DNA from: Nitrospinaceae bacterium
GTDB lineage: Bacteria; Nitrospinota; Nitrospinia; Nitrospinales; Nitrospinaceae
Reading direction: 5' to 3'
Assembly (NCBI GenBank): GCA_029261395.1
Contig: JAJDBJ010000054.1
Location: 1-42,021, forward strand
DNA length: 42,021 bases
The notes under the pieces are model-generated. The model did no database searches, was not told the origin of the DNA, and worked only from the letters and a program-made list of their open reading frames with translations. Each line of letters starts with the position of its first letter. Positions within the stretch are counted from its first letter, which is position 1. The position numbers and the translations under genes were made by a program. Of the stretch, positions 24,404 through 33,449 are shown in pieces.

Positions 24404-25618
24404 ATGAGTTTGACGGAACGAAAAATTAAATATCTAGAACCTGGTCAGAGTCGCCAGATTGTTTGGGATAATGGCGGATTTGGTGTTCAGGTCACTCCGG
24501 AAGGGGAGAAGAGTTTTATTCTGGAATATCGCTTCAATGAGATGACCAAGCAGGTCACTCTCGGTATCTATCCGGATATGAGCCTTGATGCGGCAAGAAA
24601 AAAAGCCGTCATGGCCATGGCAATGGTTATGACGGGTAAGGATCCCGAGCAAGGACTTCCAGAGCCGGAACCTACAAAAACCAAAGTTGATATTCCTGCA
24701 AGTCAAACGCCGACTTTTGATAAAATTATGGAAAAAACTTCTGAGAAGCTGGGCCAGTTTACAGGGAAAGCCTCAGAACAATTCGACAAGTTCAAAGCTT
24801 CTGATGCACTGGAGCAGTTTAAGGAAAAAGCGTCTGCGAAGCTGGATGAAATCAAGCAAAGGGTTGAAAAAAAATCAACACACCACCCTCAGGTAGCACC
24901 CCAGGCGGCGGCAGATAAGATCGTACAGCTCAATAGAAAAGCAAGAACTCAAGAAGTGAAAGCAAAGCCCTTAGAGAAATCCAAACCCCCCGAGAAGAAA
25001 GCCGAGGAGCCTGCCAAAAAAGAAGAATCCAAAGGCATGCGAGACACCTTTGGCCGTACTCTTAATAAAAATGAACTCAGAACTCTATGGTCGGGTCTTG
25101 AAAATTCGGATATGGCTCCCTCTAGTCAACTGGCAATCAAGTTGTTGATCGTCACTGCTCAAAGATATGAAGAGATTGTTTCTGCCCGGTGGGTAGATTT
25201 TGACCTGGTCTCCAAATGGTGGACTATCCCGGAAAACTTCACCAAAAACGGGAAAAAACATAGAGTTCCACTCAGCAATCTCGCCACGGATCTTTTGAGA
25301 AAGGTTAAGGACTTGTCGGGAATGTCCGGAGTTTTATTCCCAGCTCCGGGTGGTGTGACCCCTATGGATTCCAAGACCTTGATCGAGGGGCTTCAGCGGG
25401 CGCAAGTCCGGTTTGGACTGAAGCCGTTTTCTCTGCATGATTTGCAGGATAGCGCGGTGTGTCAGATGCTCGACAATGGCATCCCGGATTACATCTTGTA
25501 TAAACTGCTGAATGAAGACGAGCCGACAGAATTTGAGAATGAAGGCAAGACGGTCACGGATTCCGATTTGCGGAAGGCCTTAGATAAGCTGGAGAGACAA
25601 CTACCCAAAAGTTACTAG
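24404..25618 (+). CDS. Integrase-like protein with degenerate tyrosine-recombinase active site
   Basis: A 404-residue protein. Residues 1-80 match the DUF4102 arm-binding domain of P4-type integrases (VTPEGEKSFILEYRF, VTLGIYPDMSLDAARKKA). Residues 103-210 are an unusual Lys/Glu-rich helical linker in place of the core-binding domain. Residues 217-375 match the catalytic domain: R254 (TAQRYEEIVSARW) and the beta-hairpin lysines (TKNGKKHRVPLS). However, box II reads HDLQ (345-348), so the second catalytic Arg is Gln, and no GH box or nucleophilic Tyr context follows. It is probably catalytically dead. No tRNA or att site is adjacent. A domesticated DNA-binding role is an inference. Confidence 0.75.
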   Translation: MSLTERKIKYLEPGQSRQIVWDNGGFGVQVTPEGEKSFILEYRFNEMTKQVTLGIYPDMSLDAARKKAVMAMAMVMTGKDPEQGLPEPEPTKTKVDIPASQTPTFDKIMEKTSEKLGQFTGKASEQFDKFKASDALEQFKEKASAKLDEIKQRVEKKSTHHPQVAPQAAADKIVQLNRKARTQEVKAKPLEKSKPPEKKAEEPAKKEESKGMRDTFGRTLNKNELRTLWSGLENSDMAPSSQLAIKLLIVTAQRYEEIVSARWVDFDLVSKWWTIPENFTKNGKKHRVPLSNLATDLLRKVKDLSGMSGVLFPAPGGVTPMDSKTLIEGLQRAQVRFGLKPFSLHDLQDSAVCQMLDNGIPDYILYKLLNEDEPTEFENEGKTVTDSDLRKALDKLERQLPKSY

Positions 25619-26534: not shown

Positions 26535-27077
26535 ATGTCAGATATAACCCAGTCCGAGCTGGAAATGACCCTCGGCAATAATGTCATCGTGACCCAAATG
26601 ACCCAGGCGGTCAACTGGGCGAGAAAATATTCGTTCTTTATCTATCCCTTTATCACCGCCTGTTGTGGAATGGAGTTCATGTCCGCCGCCGGTCCGCGGT
26701 ACGATCTGGATCGGTTTGGTGCCGCGTTTCCGCGATTCTCTCCGCGTCAGGCGGATCTGTTGATGGTGGTGGGGACGATCAGTCATAAGCAGGCCCCGAT
26801 TCTGGTTAAAGTATACAACCAGATGGCCGAGCCGAAATGGGTGGTGGCATATGGAGTCTGCACGGTTTCCGGTGGATTTTACGACAACTACTCCACGGTC
26901 ATGGGTATCGACACGTTGATTCCGGTCGATGTCTACATTCCTGGATGTCCGCCGCGCCCGGAAATGGTCATCGACGGCCTGATGAAATTGCAAGACAAGG
27001 TCCAGGCAGAAACTCTGTCCGACCACGTTAAAGGTCCGGCACCGGTCACTCCACCGGAACGCCTCGTCAATATTTAA
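26535..27077 (+). CDS. nuoB: NADH-quinone oxidoreductase subunit B (NuoB-like, 20 kDa)
   Basis: Holds the N2 iron-sulfur cluster of complex I, the last electron carrier before quinone. All four ligands are present: C43-C44 (TACCGMEFM), C109 (YGVCTVSGGFYDNYS) and C138 (IPGCPPRPE). The length (180 residues) is normal. ATG 26535 follows GAGGAG. It stands alone: no nuoA or nuoC/D flank it and a terminator follows, unlike the usual nuoA-N operon. It may serve a scattered complex I or a second, partial complex. The C-terminal 20 residues are Pro-rich. Confidence 0.93.
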   Translation: MSDITQSELEMTLGNNVIVTQMTQAVNWARKYSFFIYPFITACCGMEFMSAAGPRYDLDRFGAAFPRFSPRQADLLMVVGTISHKQAPILVKVYNQMAEPKWVVAYGVCTVSGGFYDNYSTVMGIDTLIPVDVYIPGCPPRPEMVIDGLMKLQDKVQAETLSDHVKGPAPVTPPERLVNI

Positions 27078-27227: not shown

Positions 27228-27725
27228 TCAGCCAGGGCGGTGCAGGGGGCGTATGCCTTCTTTAAAAAAATAACCTTCCACGATGCCGGTTCTTTCGTCT
27301 ACGAGCAACCACAGTTTGTCAAACCTCGTATCAATTTCATCATACTGGGCCACGAGAAAATAATAGGTCAGATCCCTGCTCTCAGAAAAATAAAAATAAT
27401 ACACCCGGTGGTATTGCGTGAATTCAACTTCCGAAGAAAATAAATCAAAAAAGGTGTCCGAATTCACTACGGTCTGTCTCCGGGGTACCCGGTATTCATT
27501 GTCCGGGATACTGGCTTTCGGGACTACCACAAGTTCACTATGGGCGGAGATGGTCATGGGGGGGCCAAACCACTCCAGCGCGTCTCTTTTAAGAGTCTTC
27601 CCAGGTTGAATTTGGGACACACGTCCCGCTTTTATTTCCGTGCCGCTGTATTTGAAAAGCGTGAGACAGCCCGGTAGTATGCATAAAGAGAGCGCCAATA
27701 GAATCCTTGCCATCGATCGCTTCAT
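27228..27725 (-). CDS. Lipoprotein, SmpA/BamE-like, paralogue 2
   Basis: A 165-residue lipoprotein. The signal peptide ends in a lipobox (CILPGC, Cys about residue 20). The mature part begins with the SmpA/OmlA-like pattern IQPGKTLKRDALEWFGPP, followed by HRVYYFYFSE and closing LWLLVDERTGIVEGYFF. The same phrases occur in the next gene upstream, so the two are tandem duplicates. ATG 27725 lies 2 bp after that gene's stop, with GAGGAAAA as ribosome site. BamE proteins support the outer-membrane BAM complex, but this one lacks a recognisable full BamE, so the function is unknown. Confidence 0.7.
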   Translation of the reverse strand: MKRSMARILLALSLCILPGCLTLFKYSGTEIKAGRVSQIQPGKTLKRDALEWFGPPMTISAHSELVVVPKASIPDNEYRVPRRQTVVNSDTFFDLFSSEVEFTQYHRVYYFYFSESRDLTYYFLVAQYDEIDTRFDKLWLLVDERTGIVEGYFFKEGIRPLHRPG

Positions 27726-27727
27726 AA

Positions 27728-28216
27728 TTATTTTTCCTCTGCTTTCAGAAATACGTAATCTTCCACCCATCCCGTTTTGCGGTTCACCAATACCCACAGT
27801 TCGCTGAACTGCAGATCGGTTGATGTGAGAGGGAGACTTAACAGCGTATTTCCTATGGGAATGGAAAACCCGTTTACTTTTTCCCACTCATCAAAATAGT
27901 AATAAACGACATGATGTTCGGAGAGGTCATGCCTTTGTAGAAAATACTTAAAGAAAACCTTGGAGTCGACTTCCCGCATTTTCTCGTCGGTTGGATCCAA
28001 AGAAGGGAGCCATACCGTGCCCTCTTTTTGAGCCAGAACTGCCGGGGGGCCAAACCGTTTCAAGATGTTCTCCCGTGTGGTTTTTCCAGGCTCAATATTA
28101 TTTATCGGTTCTTTTCCCAGCGACCGGTCGTACTGAACCGAACCCCAAATACAACCGGGGATTAGCATAATCACCGCCAGAACAACCAGCTTATTGGATT
28201 GGGATTTATAACTCAT
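27728..28216 (-). CDS. Lipoprotein, SmpA/BamE-like, paralogue 1
   Basis: A 162-residue lipoprotein with lipobox LIPGC (Cys about residue 22). Residues after it carry IEPGKTTRENILKRFGPP, the short helix-turn typical of SmpA/BamE-like domains. The later HHVVYYYFDE and FSELWVLVNRKTGWVEDYVF are shared with the downstream paralogue. ATG 28216 lies within the last codons of the upstream lipoprotein gene (11-bp overlap), so the three lipoprotein genes form one translationally coupled unit. An upstream extension of the frame has no ribosome site. Confidence 0.7.
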   Translation of the reverse strand: MSYKSQSNKLVVLAVIMLIPGCIWGSVQYDRSLGKEPINNIEPGKTTRENILKRFGPPAVLAQKEGTVWLPSLDPTDEKMREVDSKVFFKYFLQRHDLSEHHVVYYYFDEWEKVNGFSIPIGNTLLSLPLTSTDLQFSELWVLVNRKTGWVEDYVFLKAEEK

Positions 28217-28832
28217 TGGAGTCCTTGCTATTGTTGGGCGGTGGGTTTTCCGGCAGTGGCTTGATCCGTTTTCCCTTCGCGAGATTTTTGAGGACTTTGA
28301 GGAAATCCCTGCCCGCCGCATCGGTTGCCAGTTTTACGTATTCCTGAAAGTTATCCCAAAGAAGAACCCAGGAGGGATAACCGATGGTGTGGATTGCAAT
28401 TATTTGGCCGGTTTTAACGTCGACAAGCCGTATCAAAATTTTAACAGGAGATTTTGATCTCTTCACAGTTTCTACATCCCCGATGAACACCGCGTCCGTT
28501 CCCAAAAGTCGAGCGGCTTGCCGGGCCTCTTCGATGGAAAACTGCTTTTCAGGGACAGCCATTCCTTTACTGGATATTTCGATTTCCGCAAAAGCGGGGG
28601 TTACGATTGAGTAATGGGATTGCTTTTGAAGGTAAAACGAAAACCATTCGGCTGAGGTTCTTCGGAATTTTTTATCGCCGGAAAAAGGCAGGACGGCGAT
28701 TTTTTTCCAGGAGGAGGGGGTAAAGCTTTCATTGAAATCGAAGTGTTTGACGGTTGCTCCCGGCTTGCTACTGCAACCGGAGAGAACGAAAAGACACACA
28801 AGAAATAAACGTAGACAGATTCTACCTTGCAC
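28206..28832 (-). CDS. Lipoprotein resembling CsgG/TolB-N-type outer-membrane proteins
   Basis: A 208-residue lipoprotein, GTG start, with GGGGAG upstream. The lipobox is VLSGC (Cys about residue 20). The mature domain opens with WKKIAVLPFSGD and continues with helices and strands (ARQAARLLGTDAVFIGDVE, VKILIRLVDVKTGQIIAIHTIG). This pattern is shared by CsgG, LpoB and related periplasmic alpha/beta domains. The C-terminal 30 residues are Pro/Asn-rich. It overlaps the downstream paralogue by 11 bp and follows the HExxH gene by 52 bp. The exact family is not settled. Confidence 0.65.
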   Translation of the reverse strand: MQGRICLRLFLVCLFVLSGCSSKPGATVKHFDFNESFTPSSWKKIAVLPFSGDKKFRRTSAEWFSFYLQKQSHYSIVTPAFAEIEISSKGMAVPEKQFSIEEARQAARLLGTDAVFIGDVETVKRSKSPVKILIRLVDVKTGQIIAIHTIGYPSWVLLWDNFQEYVKLATDAAGRDFLKVLKNLAKGKRIKPLPENPPPNNSKDSNEL

Positions 28833-28884
28833 CCAGGTCTCCCCTTAAAGATTCGCTCTCTTTCAGTGTAAGGGACTGGGTAAG

Positions 28885-30264
28885 TTATTGCAAAGAAGCG
28901 AGTTCTTTTTGGGTGGCGGTCACCCAGGCGCGGGCAGATTCTTTTTCGACTGGGGTGAAGCCGGAAAGCTGGATCATTTTCTCTATTCCCGCCATCTTTT
29001 GATTTACGTAATCGGTCAGGGCCTGTGGATTGTCGACGCCGAGTCGAATCTCACCTTTGTCGTCGAGGAATCTCTTCTTCAAGTAATGAAAGTACAGGGC
29101 GAGACGTTGAACCGGGTCCTTCGGTCCCTTGCCGTACTGCAAGTGCATCAGAGCTTCCTTGCGACGGTCGATGATGTATCCGAGGCGTGTGTTGTCGTCT
29201 TTATTGAATTGGAGGTCGAACACCTCAAATGCCGCCGCTTTGGTTTCAGCGCTTACCGTCAACTTCGGCAGAGGCAGGTGTTTTACGGCGGCAATTTCCA
29301 GCAATAGGGAACGCACCCCGGTGCGGTCACTCCAGTAGGCCGATTGTAAGGGAAGTTCGCGGTTCAGTCGGCTGACTTCCATAAGCAATGGTTCCATTTT
29401 GGCGATGGCCCCGGACAGGCGCTCAAGGGTATCTGCGTTGAACTCATCCAGAAACCACTGGACCTCGCGCGGCACACTCGATTTTTCCCGGATGCCTCTT
29501 TCAAAATACGCCTTCAGGATCGGGTCGATATCCGGGATGAAAAAGGCTTCCACTACTTTTGAGAAGTAAGGGAAGTTTAAAATCAGAAATTGAGGATTGG
29601 ATCGAATATTGAGTCCATACGCTTCCAGTTCGTTGACGTGGCCCAGAAATGCTTGCGTAAGATGCAATGTTTCGTGAAGGTGTGTTGCTTCGCCGTAGGC
29701 CTTGGTGTCGATCAAAATACTTCCGGGAGAGATGCGGATGGTGTCGAACGTGGCGTGCGCCAGCTGGCCAGGTTGCAAAAGGGCGTCGGAGTAGGGCTGG
29801 ATGATGTACTGGCGTAGTGGAACTTGGTTGCTTTCAGGGAGGGCTTTCTTGAGGCGGTCCAATACGCGCGTCATGCGTGATGCTGCTTTTTGAACCAACT
29901 GCTCTGGCTGGTGGCATTTGCCGCAATCATAATTTTCAAATCCGGGGATCAGGAAGGTTGTGGTGCTGGTGCCTCCTACAACTTGCTGGATGACAAAGTT
30001 TTTCAACGTTTCGCCCGTTGACTTGGGGTCGGGTTGAGGCAGGTGCTGGGAGATCAGGGAATCGAGTTCGCCGAGTCCGATCGGAGGGCCCGCCATTATT
30101 TGATCCGGTCCACTCACCCAGAGAACGGTCGTTAATGCGATCCAAGTCCTCCACCTGGCTCCTGCCCGGAGGGGGGGCTGGCTGACGGGTAACGGTGCGC
30201 GCGGTTCCTTGGGTGCAATGCTGGATTCAGAACCAGCATTACGCTGGCCGGGCCTGCGCATCAT
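28885..30264 (-). CDS. Unrecognised exported protein with one c-heme motif and an HExxH motif
   Basis: A 459-residue protein without a recognised family. A hydrophobic export signal lies at about 38-58. A single c-type heme motif, CGKCH, is at 114-118 (YDCGKCHQPEQL). An HExxH zinc-protease-like motif is at 197-201 (THLHETLHLTQ), with Glu212/Glu214 (NELEAYG) placed as possible third ligands. The remainder is helical. The ATG overlaps the stop of the NxrC-like gene, so translation is coupled. The first 20 codons contain palindromic repeat copy C, which may explain the 35-residue N-terminal extension. Presence of both motifs makes a heme-bearing metalloprotein in the periplasm plausible. Confidence 0.65.
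   Translation of the reverse strand: MMRRPGQRNAGSESSIAPKEPRAPLPVSQPPLRAGARWRTWIALTTVLWVSGPDQIMAGPPIGLGELDSLISQHLPQPDPKSTGETLKNFVIQQVVGGTSTTTFLIPGFENYDCGKCHQPEQLVQKAASRMTRVLDRLKKALPESNQVPLRQYIIQPYSDALLQPGQLAHATFDTIRISPGSILIDTKAYGEATHLHETLHLTQAFLGHVNELEAYGLNIRSNPQFLILNFPYFSKVVEAFFIPDIDPILKAYFERGIREKSSVPREVQWFLDEFNADTLERLSGAIAKMEPLLMEVSRLNRELPLQSAYWSDRTGVRSLLLEIAAVKHLPLPKLTVSAETKAAAFEVFDLQFNKDDNTRLGYIIDRRKEALMHLQYGKGPKDPVQRLALYFHYLKKRFLDDKGEIRLGVDNPQALTDYVNQKMAGIEKMIQLSGFTPVEKESARAWVTATQKELASLQ
30213..30250. repeat. Short palindromic repeat, copy C
   Basis: CCAGCATTACGCTGG (30233-30247) with an adjacent AATGCTGG (30217-30224) that pairs with CCAGCATT (30233-30240). It belongs to the CCAGCRT-N-AYGCTGG family of copies A and B, but lies inside coding sequence at the N-terminus of the heme/HExxH protein. 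Confidence 0.55.
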
Positions 30265-32048
30265 TTCCCATTAGCGGCAGTGGATGGAGACCGCATGATA
30301 TGGAGTCTCTGCCAGACGCTGATCACCTTGCGTCCGTTGCGATCTTCCTTTTCTCCATCCCACACTGCGAAGGCGACCAACAGCGGTTCCTTTTTGTCGA
30401 GGACGGCGTCCCACTTCCCAGACACGGCAAACGTGCGGGTGAACACGACGGTCCATTCGCCGTCTTTCCAGACACCGGAACCTTCGACGTTCTGGTACTC
30501 CGCCGGTTGCGGGGTGATGGAGCCGAAGCCTTCGGAGTTGAGTTCTTCCACCGCATTTTGTTGCGTGGTGCCCAGTTTGGTAACGGGATTGGACATGACG
30601 CCGCCGAAGATGAGCGCGTCCATATCGACCCCGCCGGTGGAATATTCAGAGTCTTCGGTGGCCTCCATTGTTTCTTCGAGGCCCGCTTTCCAGTGCCAGA
30701 TGTTCACCGGTTTGCCACGGTTGCCCATGCCAAAGAACGGTTCGTTGTGACCGTGCGTGTGCAGGGTGACGTCGCCCAGTGCCAACTGCACCGCCACGCC
30801 GTCGGTAAACACGTCGGCGCGGCCTTCCATGAACCCGTTCTTGGTCGGGTCCTTCCATTTGAGGCGGACGGCGAGAACCTCACCGTTGTTGACAGAGGCG
30901 ATGTTAACGATCTCTATGGCCCCCCGTCGTGCTGACAAGGGGCGCAGAACCAGATTGGTGGATTGAACGTCCTTCCAGACCAGGCTGTCGGGGTTGGTGT
31001 CCAATTCGTAGGGAACCTGATAGGACATGATGTCCGTTTCAAATTCTCCTTTTTGAAATCCTTTGCGGAAGTTGGATCGAATGTAATGGGTCAGTGCCCA
31101 GCGGTCTTCTTCCGGGAGATGGGCATAGGAACCCATCGGGGTGCCGTCCAACCCGGTGGAAATCGTCCTGAAAATATCCTTCGGATCGTGTCCCGCTTTA
31201 AAATAATTGGGGTTGGTGATGTCATGAACGAACACCGCATGTTTCCAGGCATCCATCAACGATTCGGCAAGGCGTCCGTTGCCCTGGCCGCTCGCGCCAT
31301 GACAATCCGTACATTTATGCTTAACAAATAATTTTTTACCTTTAGCGACCAAGGCCTTGGAAGAGGGCAGGGGATTGGCTTCCAGGCTTTTCCCCGGTGC
31401 CTCGTTACGGAAGCGGTTGGAGAAACTTTTGATCAGGTTGACCAGCGCCCAGGTATCTTGCGGCGAAAGGGCATCGCCCCAGGCCGGCATGGAAGTTCCC
31501 GGTACGCCATGGATAATGGTGCGATACAAGTCTTCATCTTTGGGAAGTGTTCCCGTTGGCGTGGAGCGGAATTTGAAAATCCCCTTGCGGAAATCGCGCG
31601 GCCAGGGATACAGGTAATCGGTTGCTGTGCCGCCGCCATTGCCGTCGCTTCCGTGGCAGTAAACACACATATGAAGATAAATATTGCGGCCCCGGTTTAG
31701 CAAGGCTTGTGCTTTGGTTTTAGGTTTTTGCAGGTTGCCCATGTCATGCTCCCCGCGTTTATGAAACGCATCGGATTTCATGTCATGATCCATGTGCCCC
31801 ATATCGTGCTGACTGTGGTCCATGCCCTCGGCAGGTGGAGCTTGCTGGTATTCGGAACCGGGAGCGGCCTCTTTGCCGAACTCGATCATGCCTTCGGGTT
31901 TGGCAGGAAGTTTTTCAAGATCGTGTTTATGCTTTTCCTCGCCGTGGGAAAAGACGGAGTTGGGAATACTGCATATCAGAGCGAGGGCGACTGATAACAC
32001 CAAACCGACAAGGCCGCCTTTGAGAGAGAACTTCGCTTTCCTGTTCAT
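30261..32048 (-). CDS. Diheme cytochrome c with ethylbenzene-dehydrogenase-type heme-b domain, NxrC-like
   Basis: A 595-residue periplasmic electron-transfer protein. A signal peptide (about 10-34) is followed by a His/Met-rich stretch (35-104; GMDHSQHDMGHMDHDM, plus H96, H101) that could bind copper. Two cytochrome c domains follow: CVYCH (128-132, Met in TSMPAWGD) and CTDCH (246-250). The C-terminal part (about 345-590) resembles the gamma subunit of ethylbenzene dehydrogenase and related type II DMSO-reductase enzymes (VAVQLALG, FFGMGNRGKPVNIWHWKAG). This architecture recalls candidate NxrC subunits of nitrite oxidoreductase. NxrA and NxrB are not in the window, so the partner is inferred. 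Ribosome site AGAGGTG. Confidence 0.85.
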   Translation of the reverse strand: MNRKAKFSLKGGLVGLVLSVALALICSIPNSVFSHGEEKHKHDLEKLPAKPEGMIEFGKEAAPGSEYQQAPPAEGMDHSQHDMGHMDHDMKSDAFHKRGEHDMGNLQKPKTKAQALLNRGRNIYLHMCVYCHGSDGNGGGTATDYLYPWPRDFRKGIFKFRSTPTGTLPKDEDLYRTIIHGVPGTSMPAWGDALSPQDTWALVNLIKSFSNRFRNEAPGKSLEANPLPSSKALVAKGKKLFVKHKCTDCHGASGQGNGRLAESLMDAWKHAVFVHDITNPNYFKAGHDPKDIFRTISTGLDGTPMGSYAHLPEEDRWALTHYIRSNFRKGFQKGEFETDIMSYQVPYELDTNPDSLVWKDVQSTNLVLRPLSARRGAIEIVNIASVNNGEVLAVRLKWKDPTKNGFMEGRADVFTDGVAVQLALGDVTLHTHGHNEPFFGMGNRGKPVNIWHWKAGLEETMEATEDSEYSTGGVDMDALIFGGVMSNPVTKLGTTQQNAVEELNSEGFGSITPQPAEYQNVEGSGVWKDGEWTVVFTRTFAVSGKWDAVLDKKEPLLVAFAVWDGEKEDRNGRKVISVWQRLHIMRSPSTAANGK

Positions 32049-32096
32049 TGAACACCTCTTTAGGGAGAGGGGTTTCCTGCTAGACCCGTGAAATTG

Positions 32097-32600
32097 TTAA
32101 CGGGCTTTGCGGACCATTTTGACTCCCTGATCCAGGTCACCCAAATCTTTTAGATTCCAGTAATCTTCGCGTTGACCCAAACCAAAGTACCAAGCGTTGT
32201 CGAGGTTGCGTTCGGTGCCGGTCCATAGATAATAACTGCCGCCTGAGGTAAACACCTCAGGGAGGCCGATGGGATCGCCATCCTTGCTTTCAACCGGTCG
32301 TTTGGCATCCCATATCTTTTTCAACTCCTCCAGAGTCGGCAGGCGCCAATCATTGTACCCGCCAAAATTTTCGGAGTTTTTGCCGTCCACATATTCCAGC
32401 GCCTGATACCAGTTCATCCCCTTTATACCATCATGATAGGAGTCCGTTTTTTGCCACATCAAGCCGGTAAGGGAATCCAATACGGCTCCTTTGGAGTCGA
32501 CTGTGAACCGCGCCGACTCGGCCCAGGCGGGAATCACAAGAACCGCGATCAATAAAGCGGGAATTAACCAAGCGTGCCTGAATTTATCTCGAACTCTCAT
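32097..32600 (-). CDS. Secreted DUF1566-domain protein
   Basis: A 167-residue protein with a signal peptide (about 8-28). The mature part is a DUF1566 (Lcl C-terminal) domain: DSLTGLMWQK, MNWYQALEYV, GYNDWRLPTLEELKKIWD, YLWTGTE. These domains are small C-type-lectin-like folds on the cell surface or in the periplasm, with no known activity. It is the first gene of the minus-strand cluster, 48 bp ahead of the NxrC-like gene, and could share its promoter. It is divergent from the MBL hydrolase gene. Confidence 0.85.
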   Translation of the reverse strand: MRVRDKFRHAWLIPALLIAVLVIPAWAESARFTVDSKGAVLDSLTGLMWQKTDSYHDGIKGMNWYQALEYVDGKNSENFGGYNDWRLPTLEELKKIWDAKRPVESKDGDPIGLPEVFTSGGSYYLWTGTERNLDNAWYFGLGQREDYWNLKDLGDLDQGVKMVRKAR

Positions 32601-32696: not shown

Positions 32697-33449
32697 ATGA
32701 AATTAACGGTATTAGGCTCCGGGACGTCGGTTCCCAATCTGCAACGCAACTCTGCGGGGTATCTGCTGGAGGAGAACGGTCATCGGATTTTGATCGATTT
32801 CGGGTACGGCAACCTCCACCAGCTGTTGCGCCTGGGCATCACTTATCATGATATCGACCGGATATTCTTCACCCATCCTCACCCGGATCATATGTGTGAT
32901 TTGATCCCTTTTCTGTTTGCCTCTAAATATCCGCTGGATCCCCGAACTCGGGACCTGCCGATTGTAGCAGGGGTGGGATTCTCTGAATATTTTGAGCGCA
33001 TGATGGAAGCCTTCTGCCATTGGCTGACCGCGGATTCCTACCAAGTGCAGATCACTGAACTGGATGAAGAAACGCGTGAACTCGATGGGCTGGAAGTGAC
33101 CTCCGGAAAAGTCCAGCATATTGAAATGAGCCGGGGATTTCGCTTTACCAACGCTGAAGGGAAAACGGTGACCTTCTCAGGGGATACCGATTACTGCTCC
33201 GGGATTGTGGAACTGGGACGCGGCGCCGACCTGTTGATTCTGGAATGTTCCACCCCCGATGATATGAAAGTTGAGAAGCATCTCACGCCTCAACTGTGTG
33301 GAAGAATAGCACGGGAGGCGGGGTGCCAAACTCTGTTGCTATCCCACTTTTATCCCCCCTGTGAGATGTCCTCTGTGCTGGAAGTCTGTAAGCAGGAGTT
33401 TTCCGGGGAGATCGTTCTTGCCAACGACTTGACCGCAGTTGATCTCTAA
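32697..33449 (+). CDS. MBL-fold metallohydrolase, RNase Z-like
   Basis: A 250-residue cytosolic hydrolase of the metallo-beta-lactamase fold. The metal motif is intact: H60-x-H62-x-D64-H65 (THPHPDHMCD), and the later FSGDTDY and LLSHFYPP supply further ligands. The N-terminal LGSGTSVPN and the SGDT motif are shared with RNase Z/ElaC and arylsulfatase-type members. Exosite features of true tRNase Z were not seen, so a tRNA 3'-processing role is unproven. The tail (GEIVLANDLTAVDL) is typical of small family members. The upstream intergenic region is 96 bp. Confidence 0.88.
   Translation: MKLTVLGSGTSVPNLQRNSAGYLLEENGHRILIDFGYGNLHQLLRLGITYHDIDRIFFTHPHPDHMCDLIPFLFASKYPLDPRTRDLPIVAGVGFSEYFERMMEAFCHWLTADSYQVQITELDEETRELDGLEVTSGKVQHIEMSRGFRFTNAEGKTVTFSGDTDYCSGIVELGRGADLLILECSTPDDMKVEKHLTPQLCGRIAREAGCQTLLLSHFYPPCEMSSVLEVCKQEFSGEIVLANDLTAVDL

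Follow-up and report, generated by a model that had tools for sequence, protein, structure and literature searches.

A conserved gene trio linking an alternative NxrC-type cytochrome with a CxxCH/HExxH protein in the Nitrospinales

The Nitrospinales are the ocean's main nitrite oxidizers. In the parts considered here of two published accounts (PMC3578206, PMC8026999), the gamma subunit encoded in the NXR operon of the Nitrospinota is predicted to be soluble, several alternative subunits compete, and neither the route of electrons from the periplasmic NXR to the respiratory chain nor the subunit composition of NXR is settled. The relevant part of the Nitrospina gracilis account (Lucker et al. 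2013, PMC3578206) gives four NxrC and four alt_NxrC genes. The alt_NxrC proteins described there, like the protein studied here, combine a DMSO-reductase-type heme-b domain with one to three heme-c sites and occur as several paralogues per genome; that part of the account mentions neither a neighbouring CxxCH/HExxH gene nor DUF1566. The NXR-C of Kuenenia, a member of the EB_dh family, holds its heme b with an axial Met/Lys pair (7b04; PMC8387239). The C-terminal domain of the exported Legionella protein Lcl is a DUF1566 domain (PF07603) and lies within a trimeric, glycosaminoglycan-binding region (PMC11162425).

The locus considered here lies in a window of 42,021 nucleotides, the whole stretch of DNA that was analyzed, from a Nitrospinaceae bacterium (GCA_029261395.1, contig JAJDBJ010000054.1). 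Six open reading frames, all on the minus strand, were confirmed between 27228 and 32600. A preliminary description had taken them as a set suggesting an envelope-bound redox complex or its assembly factors, with lipoproteins linking it to the outer membrane. The redox-complex or assembly-factor part of that proposal remains plausible. The cluster is, however, uneven in age: its three-gene core is ancient, and the lipoprotein genes were added later at the level of the genus.

In the direction of transcription, the core begins with a DUF1566/Lcl_C gene (32097..32600, 167 aa), followed after 48 nt by the gene for a cytochrome of the alt_NxrC type (30261..32048, 595 aa), whose stop overlaps by 4 nt with the start codon of a gene encoding a protein with both CxxCH and HExxH motifs (28885..30264, 459 aa; hereafter the HExxH protein). 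After a further 52 nt comes a weakly CsgG/DUF3280-like lipoprotein gene (28206..28832), overlapping by 11 nt the first of two tandem paralogous lipoprotein genes (27728..28216), and the second follows 2 nt later (27228..27725). The starts chosen for the tandem pair, 28216 and 27725, are shorter than the longest ORFs allow. Compared with two congeners, dN/dS is well under 1 for all six genes (dN 0.12 and dS 1.03 for the HExxH gene, 0.21 and 0.87 for lp5), and thus all six are real coding genes; the coordinates bear out the earlier picture of six genes on one strand with overlaps or short gaps. Promoter and terminator scans of the cluster gave no more sites than shuffled sequence. The terminator scan reported no terminator-like site on the genes' own strand within the cluster, which weakly suggests that the six genes form one transcript.

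The cytochrome and its DUF1566 neighbor

The 595-aa protein matches PF09459 (EB_dh) with 107 bits, along with PF13442 and PF00034. It carries two class-I heme-c sites, with CxxCH at 128 and 246 and distal Met at 187 and 305, and the heme-b ligands are Met441 and Lys574, which correspond to the Met/Lys pair of Kuenenia NXR-C. In the PDB, its best relatives are 6h5l_B, a cytochrome protein from Kuenenia, and 7b04_C, the NxrC of the same organism; the C-terminal half matches both 7b04_C and the gamma subunit of ethylbenzene dehydrogenase (2ivf_C). In an alignment of 51 homologues from the order, the c-heme Cys and His residues, both distal Met residues and Met441 are identical throughout, while Lys574 is identical in 50, the remaining position being unreadable (X).

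This cytochrome is of the alt_NxrC type known from N. gracilis, and is not the gamma subunit of the NXR operon. Its EB_dh domain is fused to two CxxCH sites, as in a type with one to three such sites, and the axial Met and Lys of heme b are those expected of an NxrC, but an NxrC in the strict sense is encoded in an nxrABC operon, and no nxrA or nxrB lies next to the 595-aa gene. The gamma subunit of the NXR operon is instead a separate gene of 335-344 aa adjoining nxrB; in the genome of the window it encodes 344 aa and lies on another contig (G000:C31), at whose end it adjoins a truncated nxrB. Relative to Kuenenia NXR-C, with which it has the EB_dh family and the Met/Lys pair in common, the protein has an extra diheme-c half and is encoded away from nxrAB. 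The earlier label, a diheme c/heme-b protein resembling NXR gamma subunits, therefore holds at the level of domains and conserved ligands, but not as an identification with the operon's own gamma subunit.

There are eight EB_dh genes in the genome of the window, four fused to c hemes and four c-free and NxrC-like. In a phylogenetic tree, the window protein and a second copy from contig C1 group as a single family with the copies of other genera, which have one each. The second copy is part of a second DUF1566/alt_NxrC pair (G000:C1:12141-14313; L002, L003, L094), which has no HExxH gene; LRR genes and a further DUF1566 gene lie on its flanks.

The 167-aa protein, small and lectin-like, matches PF07603 with 78.2 bits against a cut-off of 34.9, confirming its original assignment to DUF1566/Lcl_C. 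By eye, it has a hydrophobic N-terminal signal with an AWA-type cleavage site. It would thus be exported like Lcl, from which it differs in having no collagen-like stalk and in being encoded with a cytochrome.

A conserved core and a variable gap

To follow the core through the phylum, we searched for the HExxH gene in 77 genomes, 64 in the window's order and 13 outside. It was found in 55 of the 64 Nitrospinales and in none of the 13, and a profile search of the 22 negative genomes, those 13 included, gave no match. Eight of the nine Nitrospinales genomes without the gene also have no nuoB orthologue (a 45-48% paralogue or nothing at all), and in the ninth a contig end cuts nuoB on the side where the HExxH gene is expected. 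Since the linked nuoB is missing or cut too, the absences are most simply assembly gaps; gene loss, considered for G012, G014, G025, G038 and others, was set aside on the same ground.

We then mapped the genes of the window onto the surroundings of 55 HExxH loci from 54 other genomes. Upstream sequence is available for 53 loci, and in 49 of these the alt_NxrC gene immediately precedes the HExxH gene in the same orientation, the 4-nt overlap being common in many genomes and genera, and a DUF1566 gene precedes alt_NxrC in every such locus whose contig extends far enough (43 loci). On the other side, nuoB is convergent with the HExxH gene in 47 of 49 loci with sequence there and marks a conserved border downstream. 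The core of three genes is thus conserved across the order Nitrospinales, and it is this part of the proposed gene order that survives comparison; the lipoprotein genes, kept in only four genomes of a single genus, do not.

Two genera depart from the arrangement. In g2 (G010, G011) and g6 (G007, G008), the HExxH gene is apart from alt_NxrC, which sits with DUF1566 at another site, and both genes are kept; physical linkage is therefore not obligatory, and genomes keep the HExxH gene without it. In each genus the break separates the HExxH gene from alt_NxrC, and no split DUF1566-alt_NxrC pair was seen, which makes the DUF1566 protein the cytochrome's tighter partner. Where nxrB is assembled, most Nitrospinales genomes also have the HExxH family, and in most genomes the core is not adjacent to nxrAB. 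The only case noticed of the core near nxr genes is in G030 (L084, G030:C14:45600-64800), where about 6-9 kb separate the HExxH gene from nxrB and an NXR gamma gene. In two other loci (L064:8784-8900 and L076:5744-6040), a repeat of the EB_dh tail sits between alt_NxrC and the HExxH gene; the 3' end of alt_NxrC has apparently been duplicated in part, in tandem.

Close homologues of the CsgG-like gene and the tandem pair occur only at this site in the window genome, G016, G018 and G020; these four, out of 55 genomes that carry the HExxH gene, belong to the window's genus. Two congeners, G015 and G019, have nuoB next to the end of the HExxH gene, with no lipoprotein genes between, and every other genus lacks them. 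The interval that separates the HExxH gene from nuoB is a site of variable insertion, and the three lipoproteins are recent, genus-level cargo in it; a linkage to the outer membrane through lipoproteins, as first suggested, cannot therefore be a general feature. In other genera, this gap has taken up different inserts, among them, in some genomes, a 4.3-kb set (L054:4718-9042, L075:4677-9041, L080:10217-14654) that includes a PAS-like protein, an SDR-like dehydrogenase and other genes.

The names first given to the lipoproteins fare less well than their lipoboxes. The CsgG/TolB-N-like protein has a lipobox (LSGC), but its similarity to CsgG is below threshold (PF03783, 13.3 bits against a cut-off of 20.8, E 0.05), as is that to DUF3280 (E 0.012). 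The tandem proteins, about 30% identical to each other, are indeed a paralogous pair with lipoboxes (PGC in the first), but a BamE/SmpA identity is not supported: neither Pfam nor a PDB sequence search gave a match, and the AlphaFold model of the second, of low confidence (pLDDT 66), gave no fold match, BamE not being among the matches listed.

The CxxCH/HExxH family

That one protein carries both CxxCH (114-118) and HExxH (197-201) was correctly noted before. In an alignment of 39 diverse members, each at least 42% identical to the window protein, H74, C114, C117, H118, H170, H197, E198 and H201 are invariant, as are G208, N211, E212, A215 and Y216, the last including an NExxAY motif at 211-216. 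Searches of Pfam, NCBIfam and the PDB with the single sequence, a profile and the motif region found no relative, and a plasmid search found no match. A scan of 84,980 GTDB genomes, which may miss remote relatives because it required two peptide patterns, gave 52 loci, all but one labelled Nitrospinota/Nitrospina-like or "Nitrospirota/Nitrospirae". The exception, an "Alphaproteobacteria" contig (L157), carries DUF1566-alt_NxrC-HExxH and is 78-80% identical in DNA to Nitrospinales over DUF1566-alt_NxrC; it is probably a misbin.

The AlphaFold model (pLDDT 88, pTM 0.84) has a short strand region, an HExxH helix (193-201), an NExxAY helix (209-222) and an all-helical C-terminal half. Among the 12 PDB entries that match its fold best, nine are M1 gluzincin peptidases, although none of the matches falls below E 0.001 (best E 0.015). 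The zinc motif of M1 peptidases is HExxH-x18-E. Members such as leukotriene A4 hydrolase and aminopeptidase N likewise have an HExxH helix followed by an NE...A.Y helix, but in the present family 10 residues, invariably, separate H201 from E212, a CxxCH is present, and sequence similarity to M1 is not detectable. The pattern HExxH...G..NE..AY thus looks like that of M1 with the linker shortened, and the protein is better called gluzincin-like than a member of M1; the sequence and the order of the helices, HExxH first and the Glu-bearing one second, fit a gluzincin, while the fold matches themselves are insignificant. Considering also the invariant CxxCH and two further His residues, and an export signal judged by eye, we infer an exported protein with a single heme c and a gluzincin-like metal site formed by His197, His201 and probably Glu212. 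Such a protein would load heme and bind metal, and may act as a peptidase and have some link to NXR.

We tentatively favor, at somewhat short of an even chance, the reading in which the three genes, inherited vertically, encode an electron-transfer module in the periplasm of nitrite-oxidizing Nitrospinales, the HExxH protein being its dedicated, heme-bearing, metallopeptidase-like partner. The alt_NxrC protein would be a three-heme wire, with one high-potential heme b of the NXR-gamma type and two Met-ligated c hemes, most likely relaying electrons between the pool of c-type cytochromes and either NXR or a different type-II Mo enzyme. Next to be translated is the HExxH protein, whose most likely role is to act on this cytochrome, or together with it, as a maturation, quality-control or docking factor; the DUF1566 protein is probably a trimeric or carbohydrate-binding docking element. 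In favor of this reading are the order-wide conservation of the HExxH family and its usual place behind alt_NxrC, its presence in most genomes with nxrB, the conserved heme ligands and motif residues, and a confident model with mainly M1 gluzincins among its best fold matches. Against it, none of those matches reaches E 0.001, the HExxH-to-Glu spacing departs from that of M1, g2 and g6 hold the two genes apart, and the core mostly lies away from nxrAB. A bolder form, which we consider doubtful, would have these proteins be order-specific exported metallopeptidases with their own covalent heme c, whose redox state or heme loading gates proteolysis, dedicated to maturing or turning over the carrier through which nitrite oxidation is drained.

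Of the alternatives, the strongest makes the HExxH protein an ordinary cytochrome with an electron-transfer or structural role, a non-peptidase subunit of a periplasmic complex with alt_NxrC, HExxH and NExxAY serving as a structural metal site or heme ligands. The invariant H74 and H170 are candidate distal ligands for the invariant CxxCH, the gene is coupled to a cytochrome gene, and the family profile, compared with the PDB, hits multiheme c3-type cytochromes around CxxCH, none of them significantly. A mere heme ligand would have no need, however, of a full HExxH with a downstream Glu on the next helix, both invariant, and the fold neighbors, though weak, are peptidases; we regard this alternative as unlikely, if a serious one. 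Next comes the view that the neighborhood is kept only by inheritance within the order, the HExxH protein having an unrelated envelope function and no partnership with alt_NxrC. Conservation within one order could indeed come from shared ancestry alone; the block likewise preserves the convergent nuoB and an LRR gene, with no obvious link, and g2 and g6 separate the two genes. Against this stand the same-strand, near-zero spacing with frequent 4-nt overlap in many genera, and the different inserts taken up by the opposite gap, toward nuoB, and we consider the view rather improbable. A single redox complex of all six gene products anchored by the lipoproteins, as first proposed, has in its favor the single strand and short gaps of the window, the lack of a same-strand terminator-like site between the genes, and purifying selection on all three lipoproteins, yet with these absent from all other genera and from G015 and G019 we give it very little chance; as a general architecture it is already refuted.

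In the literature searched, chiefly the main text of open-access papers, the HExxH gene, the core and the coupling to alt_NxrC were not found described; the order-wide core, the orphan family and that coupling thus appear to be new, alt_NxrC and its heme composition being known. The HExxH gene, which no well-assembled genome of the order lacks and which is coupled to one alt_NxrC, singles out that subunit, and its product becomes a new candidate partner for one of the alternative NXR subunits. Should it be a heme-bearing peptidase, it would represent an unusual class of enzyme.

Genes flanking the core

Two flanking genes are context and not members of the cluster. Upstream and divergent, at 32697..33449 on the plus strand, is a gene for an RNase Z/phosphodiesterase-like MBL protein that is often conserved. 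Downstream, the convergent nuoB homologue (26535..27077, plus strand), recognized by the NCBIfam NuoB models, is 84-97% identical across the order, and a second nuoB paralogue, at 45-48%, is present in several genomes. Further along, at 24404-25618 on the plus strand, the window encodes a protein resembling tyrosine recombinases, with an Arm-DNA-binding domain and a lysine-rich insert in the middle. It is found at the same place in the congeners G016, G018 and G019 (59-69% identity), and because its position is kept it is perhaps a domesticated integrase.
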